Shown here one piece after another: positions 3,240 through 32,270 of a stretch of DNA of 33,940 nucleotides; within the stretch, counting starts at the first letter, position 1; every line of letters starts with the position of its first letter. Source of the DNA: Gemmatimonadaceae bacterium. Its GTDB lineage: Bacteria > Gemmatimonadota > Gemmatimonadetes > Gemmatimonadales > Gemmatimonadaceae. The stretch covers positions 1 to 33,940 of the forward strand of contig JALOPN010000021.1 in the NCBI GenBank assembly GCA_025453875.1, given 5' to 3'. The notes under the pieces were generated by a model, which saw nothing but the letters and a program-made list of their open reading frames with translations, did no database searches and was not told the origin of the DNA. A program made the position numbers and the translations under genes.

Positions 3240-4420
3240 GCCCCGATGTGGCGCGCGCGCTCCATGCGATCGGGCGTCGCCTCGGACGACGCGTTGCCGT
3301 CCGCGCGTGGCAGCTCGACGGCGCGCGGCGCGACGCGTTCCACCTGGCCGGCCGCCGCCTCGCGCCCTCGACGCAGCTGATCACTCGCGGCCGCGAGCGA
3401 GGCGTTCATGCGTTCGAGCGCATCGACCACCGGCGCGTTGGCACGCGGCGCCTCGGCGACGGGCATCGCTGGTGCAACGCGCACCACCGCGCGTGCCGGC
3501 AGCGCGACGCCCACACCGGCCTCCTCACCAACCGCGCGCATCGCCGCGGCAAACGCCGCCGCATCGGGCCATCGCTGCGCCGGATCGCGAGCGATCGCGC
3601 GCATGATGCCGTCGATCATGCCGAAGGGCAGATCGGCGCGGTAGTTGGCCAGCGGAAACGGCGTCCCGTGGACGTGCTGCAGCAGCATGCCGGCGCTCGT
3701 CTCGGCATCGAACGGCAGGCGTCCCGCGAGCATGAGATAGCCCACGAGGCCCAGCGCGTACACGTCGCTGCGGCCATCGACGTCACGCTGTCCCATCGCC
3801 TGTTCGGGGCTCATGAACGCCGGCGTTCCCACGGCGATCCCCGTCTGCGTGAGGCGCGCGCCGGCTTCCGCCGCGCGTGCGATGCCGAAATCGGTGACGA
3901 CGGCGCGCCCGGTGAGGTGTTCGAGCAGGATGTTGTCGGGCTTGATGTCGCGATGCACGACGCCCAGCCGATGCGCGTAGGCGAGGGCGTCGGATACCTG
4001 CGCGAGCACATCGCGCACGAAGGCAAGGGGTGGACGCGTTTCTCGCGCGAGTCGCGTGGCCAGACTCTCGCCGCTCACCAGCGCCATCACGAAGAAGACG
4101 AGTCCATCCGCTTCGTCGACTTCGTAGATCGGTACGATGCACGGATGATTCAATCGCGCCGCCGTCTGCGCTTCGCGCACGAAGCGCTCGCGCACGTCCA
4201 CGCGGTAGGCGAGCTCCGGCGGCAACACCTTGATGGCGACGTCGCGGTTGAGTCGGCGATCACGCGCCGCGTACACCACCGCCATGCCTCCGCGTCCGAT
4301 CTCGCGCAGGCCGTCGTAACGCTCGGCGACGGCCACGCGCACGCGCGCGAGCAGCAACTCGCCGTGCTCGTCGCCGCGTGGCCGCACGCTCACGGGGTCG
4401 GACACGGGCGTCGCCGTCAC
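3191..4420 (-). CDS. Hanks-type serine/threonine protein kinase (catalytic part)
   Basis: The 409-residue frame starts at GTG 4420, four bases after the stop of the upstream kinase. The earlier ATG at 4486 would overlap that gene and adds an out-of-character N-terminus. Kinase features are complete: glycine loop IGRGGMAVVY (41-50), VAIK lysine (K64), HRDIKPDN (catalytic D158), DFG (177-179) and the activation segment GTPAFMSPEQ. A Pro/Ala-rich linker follows, then the frame runs out at 3191 in an Arg/Ser-rich tail just where the paralogue has its membrane segments. The frame at 2142-3239 appears to be the missing tail. The upstream kinase gene is probably its operon partner. Confidence 0.85.
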   Translation of the reverse strand: MTATPVSDPVSVRPRGDEHGELLLARVRVAVAERYDGLREIGRGGMAVVYAARDRRLNRDVAIKVLPPELAYRVDVRERFVREAQTAARLNHPCIVPIYEVDEADGLVFFVMALVSGESLATRLARETRPPLAFVRDVLAQVSDALAYAHRLGVVHRDIKPDNILLEHLTGRAVVTDFGIARAAEAGARLTQTGIAVGTPAFMSPEQAMGQRDVDGRSDVYALGLVGYLMLAGRLPFDAETSAGMLLQHVHGTPFPLANYRADLPFGMIDGIMRAIARDPAQRWPDAAAFAAAMRAVGEEAGVGVALPARAVVRVAPAMPVAEAPRANAPVVDALERMNASLAAASDQLRRGREAAAGQVERVAPRAVELPRADGNASSEATPDRMERARHIGACSRSPSPTRASLLRR

Positions 4421-4424
4421 GACG

Positions 4425-6518
4425 TCAGGCGCCCACGGCGCGCGCGCCGACGAGCTCGCGCACTTCCTGCGCGGCTTCGACCGCACGATCCACGTCGCGC
4501 GCCACCTGCATCGCGGCCGCGGCCACCTGCGTCACGCTCTGCACGCTGCTCCCGCCGGTGCGCAGACGCACGAGATCGAGCCGAATGTTCTCGAGAGCAA
4601 GCGTGCACGCCTCGATCTTTTCGCGATGCGTGGCGTGCCGCGTCACGATCTCCTGCGCTGCGCGGCGTTCGCGACGCAGCGTTGCCAACCGACGCACACG
4701 CGCCTCGGACGCGGGATCCATCGGATTCGCCGCCGCTTCGAGCTGCGCAATCTCGGCGTCCAGCGTGGCCAGCGGGCGCGCCGCGAGCAGTTCGTCGGCG
4801 GCGGCGAGTGCACCGGCCAGCTGCTCGACCTTGTCGACCAGCGCGGCCGACGTGTTCGCCACATCGGGAATGCGGGCGCGCTCGTCCGCCGGCAGCGTCC
4901 CGAGCAGGCGCGTGATTTCATCACGCGCGGCACGGGCCGATTCGACCACGGGGCGATGCGCACCGAAGTCACGACGCGTCGCGTGCGTCGCGTTGGGTGA
5001 CACCGCCGCCGGCACGGGCGAACGCGTGGAGATCGAGCTCAGCAATCCGGTGCCGGTGCGCCCCTCGGCACGCAGCTGCTCGCGCTTCTTGCTCGAGAAC
5101 GTCGCTTCGATGGAGTCGCCCATGTCCGACAGCACGTCGCCGAACATGCGGTCCTTGGGCTGCCGCAAGACATCGCGCCAGTCGAAGCCGTCCGACCACA
5201 GCTTCGCGTACTGGTACGCGAGGATCACCGACCAGATGGCGGTGATCGGCATGAAGTTTTCGCGTGCGAAGACCCCGATCACCAACAGGACGCCGTTCAC
5301 GAACAGGAACGGCGCGAGCTTGCGCCGGAAGCGCGCGACGGACGGCGCTTCCCAGCGCGCGACTTCTTCGGCGGTGGGCTGGTACTGTGAGGCCGCGAGC
5401 GCACGCGCGGCGCGCGCCGCTTCGGCCGCCTGTCGCTGCTTGGCCTCGTACTGCCCGAGCATCTCGACCCGGACGTTCATGGGATTCGCGGGCGCCTCGG
5501 CGACCGGCGGCAGTCCGAACCCCGACTGCGCCCAGCTGGGCGGCTGCTCGGCGCGCGGACCGATTGTGTTCGAAACACCCGCCGCATCACCCAGCGCCGG
5601 CGCTCCACGCGTTTGAGCCGTTCCCCGCGCCGACAGCGCAGCAGCCGGCACGATCCCCGACCGCAACGCCGATGCAAACTCGTTGGCGCCCTGGAAGCGA
5701 TGATCCGGGTCCTTCTCCAGCAGGCGCATCACCATGGCCGCCAACATGGGCGGCACATCGGGGCGCCGCCGTTCGACCGGCACGGGCGCCTCGGAGAGAT
5801 GCTTCACGAGCAGCGCCGGCGTGGTGAGTCCCGTGAAGGGCGGCTCGCCCGCGAGCATCTGGTACGCCACCACACCCAACGAGTAGAGGTCGCTGCGCCC
5901 GTCGACGTCACGGTCGCCGGACGCCTGCTCGGGCGACATGTAGGCGGGTGTGCCGATCGCGAGTCCCGTCGCCGTGAGGCGCGCGCCATCGCCGCCTTCG
6001 GCCGCGCGCGCGATCCCGAAGTCGGTGACCATCGCGCGGCCGTCGACCGCGTCGATGAGAATGTTGTCCGGCTTGATGTCGCGATGAATCACACCGCGCG
6101 CGTGCGCATAGGCGAGCGCGTCGGCGACTTCGGTCAGCCACCGCCGCACATCTTCGGGCGGAAGCGGCCCACGATTGCGCACCTGCGTGGCCAGATTGTC
6201 ACCGTCCACGCACGCCATCACGAAGAACACCAGGTTGTCCACCTCATCGACCGAGTAGATCGGCACGATGTTCGGGTGGCTCAGCTGGGCCGCCATCTCC
6301 GCCTCGCGCTGGAAGCGCTGGCGAATGTCGCGCCGGAACGACAGCTCCGGCGGCAGCAGCTTGATCGCGACGGGCCGCTTCAGGCGCTTGTCAATGGCGC
6401 GGTAGACCACGCCCATGCCTCCACGCCCGATCTCGCGTTCCACGTCGTACGTGGCCGCGAGGGTGCGTTGAACATGGTCGCGAAGCTCGGCGTCGTTCGC
6501 CGCGGCGGAATCGGACAC
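4425..6518 (-). CDS. Membrane-anchored Hanks-type serine/threonine protein kinase
   Basis: The 697-residue product has an N-terminal kinase domain (about 25-285): glycine loop IGRGGMGVVY, AIK lysine K53, HRDIKPDN with D147, DFG 166-168, GTPAYMSPEQ. A linker rich in Ala, Pro and Gln follows, then two close hydrophobic segments (about 402-418 and 423-438) with only a few residues outside. Last comes a long Ala/Glu/Arg-rich helical region to the C-terminus. Both ends should therefore be cytoplasmic. GTG 6518 is chosen because the frame, although open much further, runs antisense through lon beyond it and resembles no kinase; no good ribosome site is seen. It phosphorylates Ser/Thr of unknown targets. 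The downstream kinase shares both the kinase and tail architecture. Confidence 0.88.
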   Translation of the reverse strand: MSDSAAANDAELRDHVQRTLAATYDVEREIGRGGMGVVYRAIDKRLKRPVAIKLLPPELSFRRDIRQRFQREAEMAAQLSHPNIVPIYSVDEVDNLVFFVMACVDGDNLATQVRNRGPLPPEDVRRWLTEVADALAYAHARGVIHRDIKPDNILIDAVDGRAMVTDFGIARAAEGGDGARLTATGLAIGTPAYMSPEQASGDRDVDGRSDLYSLGVVAYQMLAGEPPFTGLTTPALLVKHLSEAPVPVERRRPDVPPMLAAMVMRLLEKDPDHRFQGANEFASALRSGIVPAAALSARGTAQTRGAPALGDAAGVSNTIGPRAEQPPSWAQSGFGLPPVAEAPANPMNVRVEMLGQYEAKQRQAAEAARAARALAASQYQPTAEEVARWEAPSVARFRRKLAPFLFVNGVLLVIGVFARENFMPITAIWSVILAYQYAKLWSDGFDWRDVLRQPKDRMFGDVLSDMGDSIEATFSSKKREQLRAEGRTGTGLLSSISTRSPVPAAVSPNATHATRRDFGAHRPVVESARAARDEITRLLGTLPADERARIPDVANTSAALVDKVEQLAGALAAADELLAARPLATLDAEIAQLEAAANPMDPASEARVRRLATLRRERRAAQEIVTRHATHREKIEACTLALENIRLDLVRLRTGGSSVQSVTQVAAAAMQVARDVDRAVEAAQEVRELVGARAVGA

Positions 6519-9311: not shown

Positions 9312-9319
9312 ACGACATC

Positions 9320-9354
9320 ATCCCGTTCGGGGCCGTCAGGGCCCCGAACGGGAT
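9320..9354. terminator. Perfect 15-bp hairpin between lon and the convergent ABC gene
   Basis: Arms 9320-9334 and 9340-9354 are perfect complements around the five-base loop GTCAG, centred between two convergent genes. No strong T tract follows on either strand, but position and stem strength suggest a shared bidirectional terminator. Confidence 0.7.
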
Positions 9355-9366
9355 GGCCGTTGATTT

Positions 9367-20153: not shown

Positions 20154-21914
20154 ATGCGCGTGGCCGATCCCGCCCCCACCTCCGACCTTCCCAACTGGGC
20201 ACGACGTGTCCGTCCGCTCATCGCGCACATTCTGCGCGAGGAGGACGACCTGCTCGCCCGTTGGCGCGCGCGACTCATCGCCGCGTTCCTGCTCGCCTGC
20301 GCCACGCTGGGACTCGCGCCGTACATCGCGCTTGTGTTCCTCGCGCTGGAGGCAAAGCTCTGGGGGCTGCTCGTCCTCGATACCACCATCCTCGCCAGCA
20401 TCTACGTCCTGCTGCTGTCGCGACGGGTGACGAACACCGCGCGCGCCGTCGCGCTCACGCTGAGCTGCTTCTCGATCGGCACACTCGCGCTCGTCAGTCG
20501 CGGTCCGGTGTCGGCGTCGCTCGGCTGGCTGTTCATGAGCGTGTTTCTCGCCTCGTTCCTGCTGGGGCGGCGCTCGGCGACCGTGACCGTCGCCGGCACC
20601 CTGCTGGTGCTCATGGGCGTCGCCGTCGGCATTGCGACCCATCGCGTCTCGTGGGCCTTCGCCCAACCGGATCTGCTGCGGGCGTGGATTCTCACGATCC
20701 TGAACTTCGCGTTCCTCATCGTCGTCTTCGCCGCAACGAACGTCGTCATCTTCGGTCTGCTCGAACGTGAGGATGCGGCTCGTGCGCTGGCGGAAAGCCG
20801 GCTCGCCGAGGCGCGGCGACACGAGGCGCTGGGTACGCTCGCCGGCGGCATTGCGCACGACTTCAACAACCTGCTCGTGCCCGTCCTCGTGAACGTCACG
20901 ACCGTGCACGACGCGCTTCCGGCGGAGAGTCCATCGCGTGCCGCGCTGCTCGACGCGCAACGATCCGCCGAACAGGCGCGCGACCTCGTGGGGCGCATTC
21001 TTGCGTTCGGGCGCGGCATGGACACCGAGCGGACGGCGCAGGATCTCGCGACCATTGCCGATGGTGCGGTGGCGCTCGCACGGTACAGTGCGCCGGATTC
21101 CGTCCGGTTCCAGTTCGAGACAGTCGGGCCCGCCATCGTGCGCGCCGCCGCCGCCGAGCTGCATCAGATCTGCCAGAATCTCATCAGCAATGCGGTCCAT
21201 GCGCTGCCGCAGGGCGGCACCGTGCGCGTCGCCGTCTCGGCGCTCGATGACGAGGGAACGCCGTGGCACGTACTGACGGTGACCGACAACGGCGTCGGTA
21301 TCGATGAACGAACGCGCGAGCGGCTCTTCGATCCGTACTTCTCGACGCGCCCCGTGGGAAGCGGAACAGGGCTTGGCCTCCCGATCGTGCAAGGGGTCGT
21401 CACCTCGCTGGGCGGACGCATCGACGTCACGAGCGTCGTCGGGCGCGGCAGCACGTTTGCGGTGCGACTACCGGCGCAGCTGCGTGCTGAGCCGAGCGAC
21501 GCGCCGGCGTCGTCTGGTGCCATCGCAAACGACGCAACATCGCTCGACGGACTGCGCGTGCTGCTCGTGGACGATGACGACGCGGTGCGGCGCGCTACGC
21601 TGCGCCTGCTCGGTGTGCTGGGGTGCGCGGCGGAAGCCGTCGCGTCCGCCGCGGACGCTCTCGCGCTCGTGCGCCGCACACCCGACGGCTGGGACCTGCT
21701 GCTCACCGATTTTCGGATGCCGGGGCAGTCCGGGCTCGACCTGATCCACACCCTGCGCGCGGAGGGCGTCACCATGCCGGTGGTGCTCGCAAGCGGCCAC
21801 CTGGGTGACGTCACGGAGCACGGGGAGCCGCCCACCGCGACCGTCCTGCTCGCCAAACCCTTCACGCGAGAGGCGCTGGCGAGCGCGCTCGCAAGTGCGC
21901 GCGCCAGCGTCTGA
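20154..21914 (+). CDS. Membrane hybrid sensor histidine kinase with receiver domain
   Basis: The 586-residue product starts with a cytoplasmic segment, then about six membrane helices (roughly 41-202) with no large periplasmic loop, so it may sense a membrane signal. The kinase core follows: H-box GGIAHDFNNLL (H235), N-box QNLISNAVHAL (N342), G-boxes DNGVGID and GSGTGLGLPI. A C-terminal receiver has VDDDD (472-476), phosphoacceptor D519 (LTDFRMPG) and K568 (LLAKPF). No output domain or response regulator is adjacent. It begins 30 bases after the flippase-like gene, so co-transcription is likely. Confidence 0.93.
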   Translation: MRVADPAPTSDLPNWARRVRPLIAHILREEDDLLARWRARLIAAFLLACATLGLAPYIALVFLALEAKLWGLLVLDTTILASIYVLLLSRRVTNTARAVALTLSCFSIGTLALVSRGPVSASLGWLFMSVFLASFLLGRRSATVTVAGTLLVLMGVAVGIATHRVSWAFAQPDLLRAWILTILNFAFLIVVFAATNVVIFGLLEREDAARALAESRLAEARRHEALGTLAGGIAHDFNNLLVPVLVNVTTVHDALPAESPSRAALLDAQRSAEQARDLVGRILAFGRGMDTERTAQDLATIADGAVALARYSAPDSVRFQFETVGPAIVRAAAAELHQICQNLISNAVHALPQGGTVRVAVSALDDEGTPWHVLTVTDNGVGIDERTRERLFDPYFSTRPVGSGTGLGLPIVQGVVTSLGGRIDVTSVVGRGSTFAVRLPAQLRAEPSDAPASSGAIANDATSLDGLRVLLVDDDDAVRRATLRLLGVLGCAAEAVASAADALALVRRTPDGWDLLLTDFRMPGQSGLDLIHTLRAEGVTMPVVLASGHLGDVTEHGEPPTATVLLAKPFTREALASALASARASV

Positions 21915-24800: not shown

Positions 24801-24819
24801 GTGTGCGTCTCGCTGAAAG

Positions 24820-24851
24820 ACGAACGGCCCGCCAGTTGGCGGGCCGTTCGT
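24820..24851. terminator. Bidirectional terminator between E1 and the DUF4412-type gene
   Basis: A perfect 14-bp stem has arms 24820-24833 and 24838-24851 around the loop AGTT. GTTTCGT follows on the plus side, and the CTGAAAG before it gives CTTTCAG on the minus side. It sits between convergent genes. Confidence 0.8.
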
Positions 24852-24874
24852 GTTTCGTGCCGTGCAGATACCAC

Positions 24875-27808: not shown

Positions 27809-28597
27809 TCACGCGCGCCGTCGCACCAGCAGCCCCATCGCGAAGACCATCGTGGCCAGCAGCGCGAAATCGATCGCGCCGAAGGCGAGTCCGGCAAGCC
27901 ACGCCTTCGTGGTCGTGCCGTCACGCAACGTGGCACCAAGGTACGCACCAAGCGCCGCCGCCGACCCCACCGCGAGCAGCAGCCGATCGCCCTCGTGTCG
28001 GGCGCGCTTCGGCAACGGCCGCGGCTCGAGTGCACGCCACCTCCAGAGCAACCGACGGTCCGCGATGAACGCGACCATCCAGGCTCCGGCGAGTCCGAGC
28101 ACCACGGTGAGCCAGAGCTGCAGCGCGTCGTGCAACGGCACCGGTCCACCGAACGACGGCACCGGCGTGCGCAGCCACGGCAGATACGTCACTGCCCACC
28201 CCGAGTGCCCGCCGTGCGTGATGCCGTCGAGCGCCCAGTGCGACACGCCGCCGATCCACGCCGACAGCGCCGCAATGCACCAGGCGCGTCGCCCGGTCGG
28301 TGGACGAAGTGCGGCGAGATCGTGCAGCCGCAACCGCGGATGATCACGCACGAACGGCAGCACGGGTGGCAGCACGATCGCGGTCAGCAGCCATGTGAGC
28401 GCCAGCGCGAGTGGCGTGGAGAAGTACAGCTGCGCGGCAAAGGTGTGGCTGATGATCCAGTCATCGTGCATGCGGCCGATGAACTCGAGATCGGGCGCCA
28501 TGCTGCCGATGCAGAGCGCGAGCCCGTTGAAGTGATGCGGCCACCGCAGCTTGAGCGGAAGCACGAGCGCCTGATGGGCGAGGATGGTGGCTGGCAT
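27809..28597 (-). CDS. DUF4184-type integral membrane protein
   Basis: The 262-residue product begins MPATILAHQALVLPL, followed by LALCIGSMAPDLEFIGR. This opening is typical of DUF4184 proteins (MPxTxxHPAxxLPL, then GSMxPDxEY). Several membrane helices follow, with His-rich signatures WIGGVSHWALDGITHGGHSGW. It may be a metal-dependent membrane hydrolase relative, which is inference from the conserved His/Asp. ATG 28597 is preferred over 28609 because the family starts with this motif. Confidence 0.85.
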   Translation of the reverse strand: MPATILAHQALVLPLKLRWPHHFNGLALCIGSMAPDLEFIGRMHDDWIISHTFAAQLYFSTPLALALTWLLTAIVLPPVLPFVRDHPRLRLHDLAALRPPTGRRAWCIAALSAWIGGVSHWALDGITHGGHSGWAVTYLPWLRTPVPSFGGPVPLHDALQLWLTVVLGLAGAWMVAFIADRRLLWRWRALEPRPLPKRARHEGDRLLLAVGSAAALGAYLGATLRDGTTTKAWLAGLAFGAIDFALLATMVFAMGLLVRRRA

Positions 28598-28676
28598 GTG
28601 ATGCAGCATCGGTTGGCTGCGTCACGGTGCGGTGAAGCGCACGTCACCGTGGTGAGTAGGGTTGCGCGGGCGAGGA

Positions 28677-28840
28677 CTGCAGCTGTTCAGGGAACCGCCA
28701 GCCCGCATCGGCTGCCATCAGCTCCGTCAGCGCGTCGCGAGACAGAAAGTTCAGCCGATCAGCTGAAGCCGGTCGTCTCGCGACGCGCCGATGGAGCTGA
28801 GGGAGCTGGTGCGGGCTGGATGGTCCCTGGACAGCTGCAG
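28677..28840 (-). repeat. Palindromic element, copy 1
   Basis: This 164-base imperfect palindrome starts with CTGCAGCTG and ends with CAGCTGCAG. It is centred at 28758.5 on TTCAGC-N6-GCTGAA. Perfect inner arms GCGTCGCGAGAC (28732-28743) and GTCTCGCGACGC (28775-28786) lie near the centre. Its reverse complement aligns better with copy 2 than its forward strand does. Confidence 0.85.
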
Positions 28841-29041
28841 GCGCCGCACCGCATCGTGCGTGGGGCAGGGGCGATTTCCGTGCGACCATCACGCTGGTGC
28901 AGCGGTTCGGCTGGCTGCCAGGTCGCTGACGCTGGTCGGCTGGCCGTTCCAGCTGGAGCAACAACCAGCCAGCGGCCCGGCCCCCGCAGCGTGCCCCGCT
29001 CGCGTCCCGATCCCGTGCCGCGGCCGCACATCGCGGATCGC

Positions 29042-29202
29042 CTGCAGCTGTCCAGGAACCATCCAGCCCGCACCAGCTCCGTCAGCTCCACCAGCGCATC
29101 GCGAGGCAGAGAGTTCAGCTGATCAGCTGAAGGCTGTCGTCTCGTGATGCGCGGACGGAGCTGATGGCAGCTGAGACCTGGCGGTTCCCTGCACGGCTGC
29201 AG
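29042..29202 (+). repeat. Palindromic element, copy 2
   Basis: This 161-base imperfect palindrome is bounded by CTGCAGCTG and GGCTGCAG. It is centred on the perfect 18-base palindrome at 29114-29131 (TTCAGCTGA/TCAGCTGAA). It is strongly similar to copy 1 read on the opposite strand, sharing for example GACGGAGCTGATGGCAGC and TGGCGGTTCCCTG. Confidence 0.85.
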
Positions 29203-29295
29203 GCACGGCACCGCGGCACCGCGCGGCACCGACGCTCGCCGTGCGCCGCCCCTCCCCGCCCCGTACTTTCCCTGCGTCCCCAACCGGAGTTCCGC

Positions 29296-32205
29296 ATGCC
29301 GTTCCCGCCTCGGCCGGCCCGCCTGGCCGCCGCGCTTCTGCTCGTTGCCGGCCCGCTCGCCGCCCAGTCGGCCAGCGCCCCGCGCCCCATGACCCCGGCC
29401 GACATCTCGGCCTGGAAGTCGATTCGCAGCACCCAGCTCAGCCACGACGGTCGCTGGTTCGCCTACGTGCTCGCGCCCAACGAGGGCGACGCCGAGGTGA
29501 TCCTGCGCGAAGTGGCGGCCAATGGGCGCGAACACCGCTTCCCCGTGGGTGACGTGGGGCAGAATCCCTCACTCGCGCTTTCCGGCGACGGCAAGTGGGC
29601 CGCGTTCGTACGCTGGCCGGTGACGGCCGAGGCTGAGCGCATGCGCCGCGATCGTCGCGCCATTCAGGGCACGGCGGTGATCGTCGACCTCACGCGTGGC
29701 ACCTCGCGCTCGATCGACAAGGTGCGGTCGTTGGCGTTCGCCGGTGATGCCCCGCGCTGGATCGCGCTGCAGGGGTACAGTGCCGACGCCGGCGCGGGCG
29801 GTGGAGCGGGCGGTGGCGGTGCGGCCGCACCGGTTGGCGCCCCCACACCGGGCACCGGTCGTGGGGGGCCGCTCATCGGCGGTGGCGGTGGTGGCGATCG
29901 TGCGCTCGGCTCCGACCTTGTGCTGCACGAACTCGGCACCGAAACGATGCTCAACGTCGGCAACGTCAACGAATACGCGTTCGATCACACCGGTCGCTGG
30001 CTGGCGTACACGATCGACGCCACGAATCGACTGGGCAACGGCGTGCAGGTGCGTGACATGAACGCGGGTACCGTGCGTGGTATCGATGCCGCGCAGCGGG
30101 CGACCTATCGCCGACTCGCGTGGGCCGACACGATGCCTGCCTTCACCGTGCTGCGCACGACGATCGACAGCAGTGGCAAGGACACCGTGCACACGGTGAT
30201 GGGCGTGAGCCGCGTCGGCACGCCGCAGGAGCGCCGGATCGCGATCGCACCGAGCGGTCGTGCCGACTGGCCGGCTGGTACGCGCGTGAGCCTCGAGCGC
30301 GCGCCGCGCTGGTCGCACGATCTCGACGGACTCTTCTTCGGTGTGGCCCCGGTGCCACCGGCGGTGCCACGCGATTCGCAACTCACCGACGACGATCGGC
30401 CGTCGTTGCGACTGTGGCACGACAAGGATCAACGCCTGCAGTCGCAGCAGGATGTGCAGGCGACACAGGATCGCACCTTCTCCTATCTCGCGGCCTACTG
30501 GCCGGCCACCGACAAGGTCGTGCAGCTCACCGATGCCGACGCGCGCACCGGCAGCACCACCGATCTCGATCGCTGGGTGATCAGCAACGACGTCTCGCCC
30601 TATCAGCGACAGGCGAGCGTCGACGGCATCAACAAGCGTGATGTGTATGTCGTGAATCCGCGCACGGGCGAGAAGCGGAAAGCGCTCACCGGACAGGAGG
30701 GCGCGGCCGTTCCCTCGGTCGATGGGCAGCGCCTTGCCTTCTGGCGTGACGGCGAGTGGCATGTGATGGAGATGGCCACACTCGCGTCGCGTCAGGTCAC
30801 GACGGGCGGTCGCTTCATCAATGTCGAGGACGACCACAACGTCGATCGTCCCGCGTACCCGCACTTCGGGTGGTCGCAGGACGGCAGCGCGTTCCTCGCG
30901 TCGGATGGCTGGGACATCTGGCGCGTGCCGGTCAGCGGTGCCGCCGCCGTGAATCTCACGCAGGATGGCAAGGCCAAGGGCATTCGTTACGGCCGGCCCA
31001 TGATGCTCGAGCCTCGGCAACGCGGTGTGAACCTCGCCGCACCCTTCCTCGTCACGGCGCGCGTCGAGCGGACCAAGCGCGAGGGGATTCTCCGCGTCGA
31101 TCCGCGCGCCGCACGCGTGACGGCGCTCGACTGGAAGGACGCGCGCATCATGCCCATGAAGGCGCGCAATGCCGACGTGTGGGTGGCGTCGATCTCGACC
31201 GCGGCGCGCTATCCCGATTACTGGCGCGTCACGTGGGGCGGCGATTCGCTGCGACTCACCGATGGCGCGCCGAACATGAACGGCGTGGCCTGGACACCTG
31301 GCGCACGCCTGGTCACGTACGTGAGCGACAAGGGTGACACGCTGCAGGGCGCGCTCTACCTGCCCGCCGGCTACGAGGAAGGCAAGCGCTACCCGACGGT
31401 GACGTACATCTACGAGAAGATGTCCGACAACCTGCATACGTTCTACGCGCCGTCGTTCTCGAGCTCGTATACGCCCAGCATCTACACGAGCCGCGGCTAC
31501 GCCGTGTTCCAGCCGGACATCACGTACAAGATCAACGACCCCGGCATGTCGGCGGTGTGGTCGGTGATTCCGGCCATCAAGGCCGCGGTTGCCACCGGCA
31601 TCGTGGACGAAGGGAAGGTCGGGCTGCACGGCCACTCGTGGGGCGGCTACCAGACGGCGTTCCTCGTGGGGCAGACGAACATCTTCAAGAGCGCCGTCGC
31701 GGGCGCGCCGCTCACCGACATGGTGAGCATGTACAGCTCGGTCTACTGGAACACCGGCTCCGCCAACCAGCCCATCTTCCAGAGCTCGCAGGGACGCTTC
31801 AAGGGCAACTTCATCGACAATCGTGACGCGTACGAGCGCAACTCGCCCAATCGCTACGCGAACAAGGTCGAGACCCCGCTCATCATCCTGCACAACGATC
31901 GCGATGGCGCGGTCGACTACAATCAAGGCATCACGTTCTACAACACCCTGCGGCAGCTCGACAAGGACGTCATCCTGCTCGAGTATCAGGGTGAGAACCA
32001 TGGCCTGTCGCAGCTCAAGAACCGGCGCGACTACACCATTCGCCTCATGGAATGGTGGGACACGCACCTCAAGGGCGAACGCGCGCCGGAGTGGATCGAA
32101 CGTGGCATTCCACGCCTCGAGATGGAGCGCCACTTCCGCGAGCGCAAGGGACTCTACGCGCCAGCGAAGAAGGACGAGCCGGCCAAGCCACGTATCGTGC
32201 CGTAA
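29296..32205 (+). CDS. S9 family serine peptidase (prolyl oligopeptidase type)
   Basis: The 969-residue product has a signal peptide (RLAAALLLVAGPLAAQ), so it is periplasmic or exported. A long beta-propeller-type N-terminal region carries a Gly-rich low-complexity loop near residues 160-202. The C-terminal catalytic domain has the complete triad: S781 in GHSWGGY, D870 in HNDRDGAV and H902 in GENHGL. Such enzymes cleave short peptides, often after Pro or Ala. GGAG at 29285-29288, seven bases before ATG 29296, fixes the start. It stands alone between the palindromic region and a strong terminator. Confidence 0.95.
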   Translation: MPFPPRPARLAAALLLVAGPLAAQSASAPRPMTPADISAWKSIRSTQLSHDGRWFAYVLAPNEGDAEVILREVAANGREHRFPVGDVGQNPSLALSGDGKWAAFVRWPVTAEAERMRRDRRAIQGTAVIVDLTRGTSRSIDKVRSLAFAGDAPRWIALQGYSADAGAGGGAGGGGAAAPVGAPTPGTGRGGPLIGGGGGGDRALGSDLVLHELGTETMLNVGNVNEYAFDHTGRWLAYTIDATNRLGNGVQVRDMNAGTVRGIDAAQRATYRRLAWADTMPAFTVLRTTIDSSGKDTVHTVMGVSRVGTPQERRIAIAPSGRADWPAGTRVSLERAPRWSHDLDGLFFGVAPVPPAVPRDSQLTDDDRPSLRLWHDKDQRLQSQQDVQATQDRTFSYLAAYWPATDKVVQLTDADARTGSTTDLDRWVISNDVSPYQRQASVDGINKRDVYVVNPRTGEKRKALTGQEGAAVPSVDGQRLAFWRDGEWHVMEMATLASRQVTTGGRFINVEDDHNVDRPAYPHFGWSQDGSAFLASDGWDIWRVPVSGAAAVNLTQDGKAKGIRYGRPMMLEPRQRGVNLAAPFLVTARVERTKREGILRVDPRAARVTALDWKDARIMPMKARNADVWVASISTAARYPDYWRVTWGGDSLRLTDGAPNMNGVAWTPGARLVTYVSDKGDTLQGALYLPAGYEEGKRYPTVTYIYEKMSDNLHTFYAPSFSSSYTPSIYTSRGYAVFQPDITYKINDPGMSAVWSVIPAIKAAVATGIVDEGKVGLHGHSWGGYQTAFLVGQTNIFKSAVAGAPLTDMVSMYSSVYWNTGSANQPIFQSSQGRFKGNFIDNRDAYERNSPNRYANKVETPLIILHNDRDGAVDYNQGITFYNTLRQLDKDVILLEYQGENHGLSQLKNRRDYTIRLMEWWDTHLKGERAPEWIERGIPRLEMERHFRERKGLYAPAKKDEPAKPRIVP

Positions 32206-32220
32206 CGCGCGCCCGCACAG

Positions 32221-32270
32221 CAACGCCAACGGCCCCGCTGCTCTTCGGAGCAGCGGGGCCGTTGGCGTTG
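32221..32270. terminator. Very strong hairpin between S9 peptidase and peroxidase genes
   Basis: A perfect 23-bp stem (32221-32243 with 32248-32270) is capped by a TTCG tetraloop closed by C-G, the hyperstable C(UUCG)G form. It lies between convergent genes and has no T tract on either side. It is probably a bidirectional terminator or a 3'-end stabiliser. Confidence 0.85.

Follow-up and report, generated by a model that had tools for sequence, protein, structure and literature searches.

REPs occur as inverted dimers, are placed between genes with a bias towards convergent pairs, and form species-specific families (PMC3733652, PMC3116915). CGTC-tagged REPs (Di Nocera et al. 2013) are head-to-head dimers with stems of 8-9 bp, for which a dedicated transposase is not known (PMC3733652). 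The small noncoding repeats (SNRs) of Deinococcus radiodurans are mosaics, plentiful in this species and lacking from a congener (PMC1978522).

The locus considered here lies in a 33,940-nt stretch of a Gemmatimonadaceae genome (contig JALOPN010000021.1, positions 1 to 33,940; hereafter the window), which belongs to a 2.96-Mb metagenome-assembled genome (MAG) that is 64% complete and divided into 410 contigs (G000). One 526-base feature of the window represents a hitherto unnamed family of very long dispersed DNA palindromes, carried by this Gemmatimonas-like bacterium and by a sister species. Like REPINs and BIMEs, the family comprises two inverted palindromes round a conserved centre, is intergenic and lineage-specific, forms tandem clusters, and shows a convergent and unidirectional bias. 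Unlike them, it bears no GTAG tag, no RAYT was found, and the whole element forms one nested palindrome; moreover, their palindromes measure 20-40 bp, whereas those of the present family reach 161-164 bp (type I), ~380 bp (type II) and ~270 bp (sister species). The CGTC tag is likewise absent. With MITEs the family shares a non-coding nature, terminal inverted repeats, dispersal and the capacity to fold along its length, but neither a target duplication, nor a related IS, nor a fixed internal sequence has been shown for it. The likeness to the D. radiodurans SNRs is one of description, and the present family differs in having diverged homologues in a sister species. The literature searched, which does not prove absence, contained no published account of such repeats in Gemmatimonas.

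Long palindromes are usually unstable in bacteria, being subject to SbcCD cleavage and deletion. Two sister species that keep dozens of intergenic palindromes of 270-530 bp constitute a natural system for studying how palindromes originate, survive and spread, and allow one to ask if the complementarity of the arms is due to selection or to template switching.

Structure of the window element

The first-pass annotation of the window described two palindromes of ~160 bases, arranged as one larger inverted repeat around a 201-base centre. The coordinates of both palindromes, P1 and P2, hold (Table 1), and so does the larger repeat: 212 of 243 aligned pairs of positions are complementary across the 526 bp, and the element scores 275 bits against its own reverse complement, whereas the best palindrome from 30 order-1 Markov shuffles of the window scores 44.6 bits. 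P1 and P2 both begin with CTGCAGCTG and finish with GCTGCAG; GGGAACCGCCAG and CTGCCATCAGCTCCGTC are common to both outer arms, and CTGTCCAGG and GCACCAGCTCC to both inner arms. Since the identity between the outer arms (84%) and between the inner arms (93%) exceeds that between the own arms of P1 (81%) and of P2 (73%), it is in the larger nested inverted repeat that pairing is better preserved. Folded with RNA parameters, both hairpins lie far outside chance expectation (Table 1) and the region 28660-29220 reaches z = -17.9; the predicted minimum free energy (MFE) of the whole element (-394.5) is below that of its three parts summed (-342.4).

Table 1. Coordinates of the window element, its parts and neighbours, and of the family III palindromes in related genomes
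Feature	Coordinates	Strand	Description
Palindrome P1	28677-28840	.	MFE -141.4, z -16.4; 81% self-reverse-complement identity
P1 arms	28677-28744 (outer left); 28777-28840 (inner left)		Short loop with TTCAGCCGATCAGCTGAA
Centre (module B)	28841-29041	+	201 bp, itself weakly palindromic; defines the canonical orientation
Palindrome P2	29042-29202	.	MFE -103.7, z -9.1
P2 arms	29042-29105 (inner right); 29139-29202 (outer right)
Whole element	28677-29202	.	Single nested 526-bp palindrome, type I family member
Best-kept inverted pair	28777-29105	.	67-nt arms 28777-28843 / 29039-29105, 93% complementary across the centre
Left neighbour, DUF4184 / zinc-dependent phospholipase C-like	27809-28609	-	Start 68 bp left of the element
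Right neighbour, prolyl oligopeptidase (S9) family	29296-32205	+	Start 94 bp right of the element
Family III, G000	C57:1396-1799 (L155); C310:3035-3392 (L152); C313:4394-4759 (L311)
Family III, G002 and G004	G002 C3:85179-85614 (L199 5179-5614); G004 C45:194357 (L302)

The element occupies most of a 686-bp gap separating two divergent genes. The orthologous gap of the sister species, upstream of the S9 orthologue, lacks such an element and contains a reading frame on the minus strand. This frame (L089, ~900-1360) lies in the counterpart of the gap at window positions 28610-29295, is absent from the genome of origin and, judged by eye, looks like a cytochrome c.

Elsewhere in the window, short palindromes of 37-50 bp (9319-9355, 21871-21912, 24815-24856 and 32221-32270) offer a local contrast to the 526-bp element and are likely ordinary terminators. 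Direct repeats at 3710-4318 and 5835-6449, with 72-77% identity and a spacing of ~2.13 kb, are probably a duplicated gene or domain.

Family members in the genome of origin

A BLAST search of the element against its own genome returned type I copies on contigs C49 (two places), C119, C301 and C310, which are 75-87% identical to it along extended stretches; the additional, shorter matches represent a second subtype, type II. Altogether, ~16 intergenic loci were found, so that the family is dispersed over many unrelated places and the window copy is more than a local duplication, in support of the earlier comparison with mobile elements and with REP/BIME-like repeats, though of much longer unit.

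Type I elements are laid out as hairpin, centre and inverted hairpin, with hairpin units of 161-164 bp. Inverted doublets around a spacer are present in the window, C49 and C301; in C119 the right hairpin is truncated. The 201-bp centre has homologues in the copies on C49, C119 and C301, and an inverted one in the copy on C310. Type II elements (three on C3, others on C57, C166, C276, C322, C379 and C381) are single hairpins of ~380 bp that have the outer arm module in common with type I and differ from it in their interiors. Their outermost module, GTAACCACGGAAACGGGTGG, is common to the type II copies, and their ends bear tandem units (GTAACCACGGAAACGGG...) which in C379 and C57 are mirrored at both sides. 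The arms are mostly flanked by RTCGCC abutting TGCAGC in type I, or by GCGCGTAAGCAG in type II. A degenerate arm pattern (CCAGCCCGCAYCRGC...) matched 31 places in this genome, against none for the same pattern read backwards; the two weakest places (C155 and C278, with 3 mismatches) look like chance matches.

Eight of the 16 loci have a contig end within 350 bp. With half of the loci so placed, the true copy number is probably higher, and the elements mark breakpoints of MAG assemblies.

The sister species and wider distribution

A direct DNA search of 60 relatives yielded weak matches only (E ~1e-4), one of which, in the 95% complete MAG Gemmatimonas sp. S07.Bin148 (JAABRO01; G002), revealed a complete family of homologues. 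One element copy of this genome has 46 matches within it, and at least 16 diverged hairpins of ~270 nt (fold z of ~ -12 to -13) are present, either singly or in tandem arrays with a period of 388 bp. Local tandem amplification is apparent in these arrays, where adjacent units are up to 97% identical, which suggests that it was recent. Two arrays (G002 C3:11540-12505 and C3:33430-34390; L139 and L140) consist of 270-bp hairpins and 118-bp spacers, repeating at ~388 bp.

When aligned (alignment A1), the hairpins of the sister species and the type II elements have a common core. Across 179 genomes of the bacterial family, enrichment of the core pattern is confined to the genome of origin (10) and the sister species (19); at the search sensitivity used, the repeat family is limited to these two species. 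The exact arm pattern had no match in 84,980 GTDB genomes or in viral contigs, and blastn against phage and plasmid sequences returned nothing. The core pattern was found in 9 stretches of the GTDB set, of which 3 (4 matches) come from the sister species' own MAG; the other six, with no long palindrome nearby, are regarded as chance matches.

Placement and orthologous sites

All sampled copies are intergenic, the largest overlap being ~15 bp at gene ends, and they often adjoin stop codons. Both neighbours are known for 20 copies (C301 being uncertain, as its left neighbour was called far off), of which 9 lie between convergent genes, 6 within co-directional pairs and 5 within divergent pairs, the window copy among the last. 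With genes called by a simple codon-score script rather than a standard annotator, the convergent share exceeds both the 15% of gene pairs (p = 0.0015) and the 14% of intergenic length (p = 0.0006) that are convergent.

For two copies, C49a and C166, both flanks align by local BLAST to one place in stretches of the sister genome, and neither place has an element; a flank search by local BLAST in a separate set of 20 stretches of that genome returned nothing. At C49a, an element of ~860 bp in the genome of origin faces a gap with an unremarkable terminator-like hairpin of 41 bp; at C166, an element of ~380 bp faces convergent genes whose stop codons nearly touch. At either site, the absence may represent loss from the sister species instead of gain in the genome of origin. 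In a comparison by eye, the intergenic flanks of both sites are too diverged for a target duplication to be read.

The same sites bear on the view that the elements are an assembly or amplification artefact made of chimeric inverted repeats. The genome is indeed a MAG with numerous copies near contig ends, but arms are imperfect, copies have diverged in sequence, a homologous family is present in an independent MAG and flanks are intact at the orthologous sites; an artefact is thus scarcely credible.

The elements are probably close to neutral where they reside and may act as insulators or terminators of transcription between adjacent genes, for example in convergent pairs. It is a stronger claim, and an unlikely one, that they are functional bidirectional terminators or insulators grown large. 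The enrichment at convergent pairs, the proximity to stop codons and the terminator-like hairpin in the sister species' C49a gap would all fit such a role; a few copies, however, the one in the window included, are situated between divergent genes, and the same sites do without an element in the sister species. A terminator search found two weak sites within the element, on the minus strand, but none at its ends, where a T tract is lacking, and a hairpin of 526 bp and -394 kcal/mol is far beyond what termination requires.

Candidate mobilising enzymes

The earlier remark that no transposase lies near the window element extends to the other copies, as none was seen among 30 flanking genes sampled there. 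The RAYT-type domain Y1_Tnp (PF01797) was detected in none of five genomes of the genus (the genome of origin being 64% and the sister species 95% complete), and in all five control genomes. The IS91-type Y2 transposase (PF04986) was absent from the genome of origin and the sister species in a search whose control genomes were also silent, leaving it without a positive control; one partial match was obtained in another genome, G004.

These results weigh on the likeness to REP and BIME repeats put forward in the first-pass annotation, which stands as regards dispersal and the remark on size and loses ground as regards the missing RAYT and the GTAG or CGTC tag, neither of which was seen. Inverted doublets and intergenic orientation bias place the family with REPs and REPINs, whereas unit length, tag and RAYT set it apart. 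True REPs, REPINs or BIMEs mobilised by a RAYT-type Y1 transposase would account for palindromes in inverted dimers and for the species-specific families with intergenic and convergent bias (PMC3733652, PMC3116915), but not for units of 160-380 bp; this explanation is largely refuted already and very improbable.

The elements could instead be classical MITEs, that is, derived by deletion from a DDE-type IS that has long terminal inverted repeats, the autonomous IS being absent from the MAG or unassembled in it. Inverted ends, the lack of an own ORF, dispersal, the known element-free sites and the outermost module common to type II copies would all be expected of MITEs. Yet lengths and interiors are highly variable, symmetrical tandem units lengthen the ends in C379 and C57, near-identical copies are lacking, none of the 30 flanking genes sampled encodes a transposase and a target duplication is not visible at the two diverged orthologous sites. 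We regard a MITE origin as conceivable, if somewhat unlikely.

Likeness of the arms

Among type II elements, the two arms are more alike within an element (91.6% identity) than between elements (84.1%; permutation p = 0.008). In the sister species the difference is small (76.6% within versus 74.2% between, p = 0.075). Several blocks have been altered jointly in both arms, namely GGGCACTG in C166, GGGAACCG in C381 and TTCGGGTCC in C57. Template switching is capable of homogenising hairpin arms, and joint changes of this kind are the multi-base pattern that it yields (PMC8794818).

In the stems of the genome of origin, G-T mismatches are about as frequent as A-C mismatches (28:24 and 38:44), a balance that speaks against selection acting on a single RNA strand. 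In the sister species G-T mismatches exceed A-C mismatches (122:80, p = 0.004, from copies that are not independent), which leaves room for a contribution of RNA-level constraint there. The suggestion that the region is a multi-hairpin RNA gains no support: the type I hairpins show little covariation (RNAalifold), and Rfam scans of the window and 11 element loci matched no family. A structured non-coding RNA gene family would agree with the very stable folds and with the G-T excess of the sister species, but, given these results and a search that found no promoter-like site at the element, it is marginally less probable even than the RAYT-driven origin. More generally, apparently compensatory pairing in such hairpins does not necessarily indicate RNA function.

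Origin and maintenance of the elements

The explanation that we favour, and hold to be probably correct, is that the family consists of lineage-specific, giant, non-coding and non-autonomous palindromic repeats located between genes, REPIN/BIME-like or MITE-like, which are mobilised in trans and whose arms are kept alike at the DNA level. A transposase or recombinase working in trans on the palindromic ends would give rise to new loci, in the fashion of REPINs or MITEs. Replication slippage could then expand and duplicate hairpins in cis, and template switching at replication forks, rather than selection on an RNA fold, would probably be the main process keeping the arms alike. As near-identical dispersed copies are missing (the closest pair at different loci reaches ~88% identity), mobility is either old or something that we infer.

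Other long palindromes in the Gemmatimonadaceae

An unrelated set of GC-rich hairpins (CACTGYCGG...CCGRCAGACG), termed family III (Table 1), occurs mostly as head-to-head inverted pairs with centres of ~90-250 bp, a layout like that of the window element with a different sequence. CGTC adjoins the stem on the other strand, so that these hairpins resemble CGTC-tagged REPs in both tag and head-to-head pairing. Save for a few chance matches, family III is confined to the genus.

Under a single detection rule, applied to samples that are small, non-random and uncontrolled for GC content, long palindromes numbered 44 per Mb in 112 kb of genome G001, 40 and 15 per Mb in 200 kb each of G020 and G026, 21 per Mb in 47 kb of G003 (a single case) and ~9 per Mb in 794 kb of the sister species; none turned up in 197 kb of G004, in 81 kb of other contigs of the genome of origin or in the 150 kb taken from E. 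coli K-12. One might speculate, with considerable doubt, that species-specific giant intergenic palindromes form a class throughout the Gemmatimonadaceae, spread by neither RAYTs nor ordinary IS and with arms constantly restored to complementarity by template switching during replication, the palindromes arising and persisting as a by-product of mutation. Three of these genomes have long palindromes of their own (G001: L238, L240, L242; G026: L209, L211, L213; G020: L220-L224), in which many arms are built of degenerate tandem words of 7-9 nt, such as GAGGACACG, CGCAGAGGA and GCGCGAANA.
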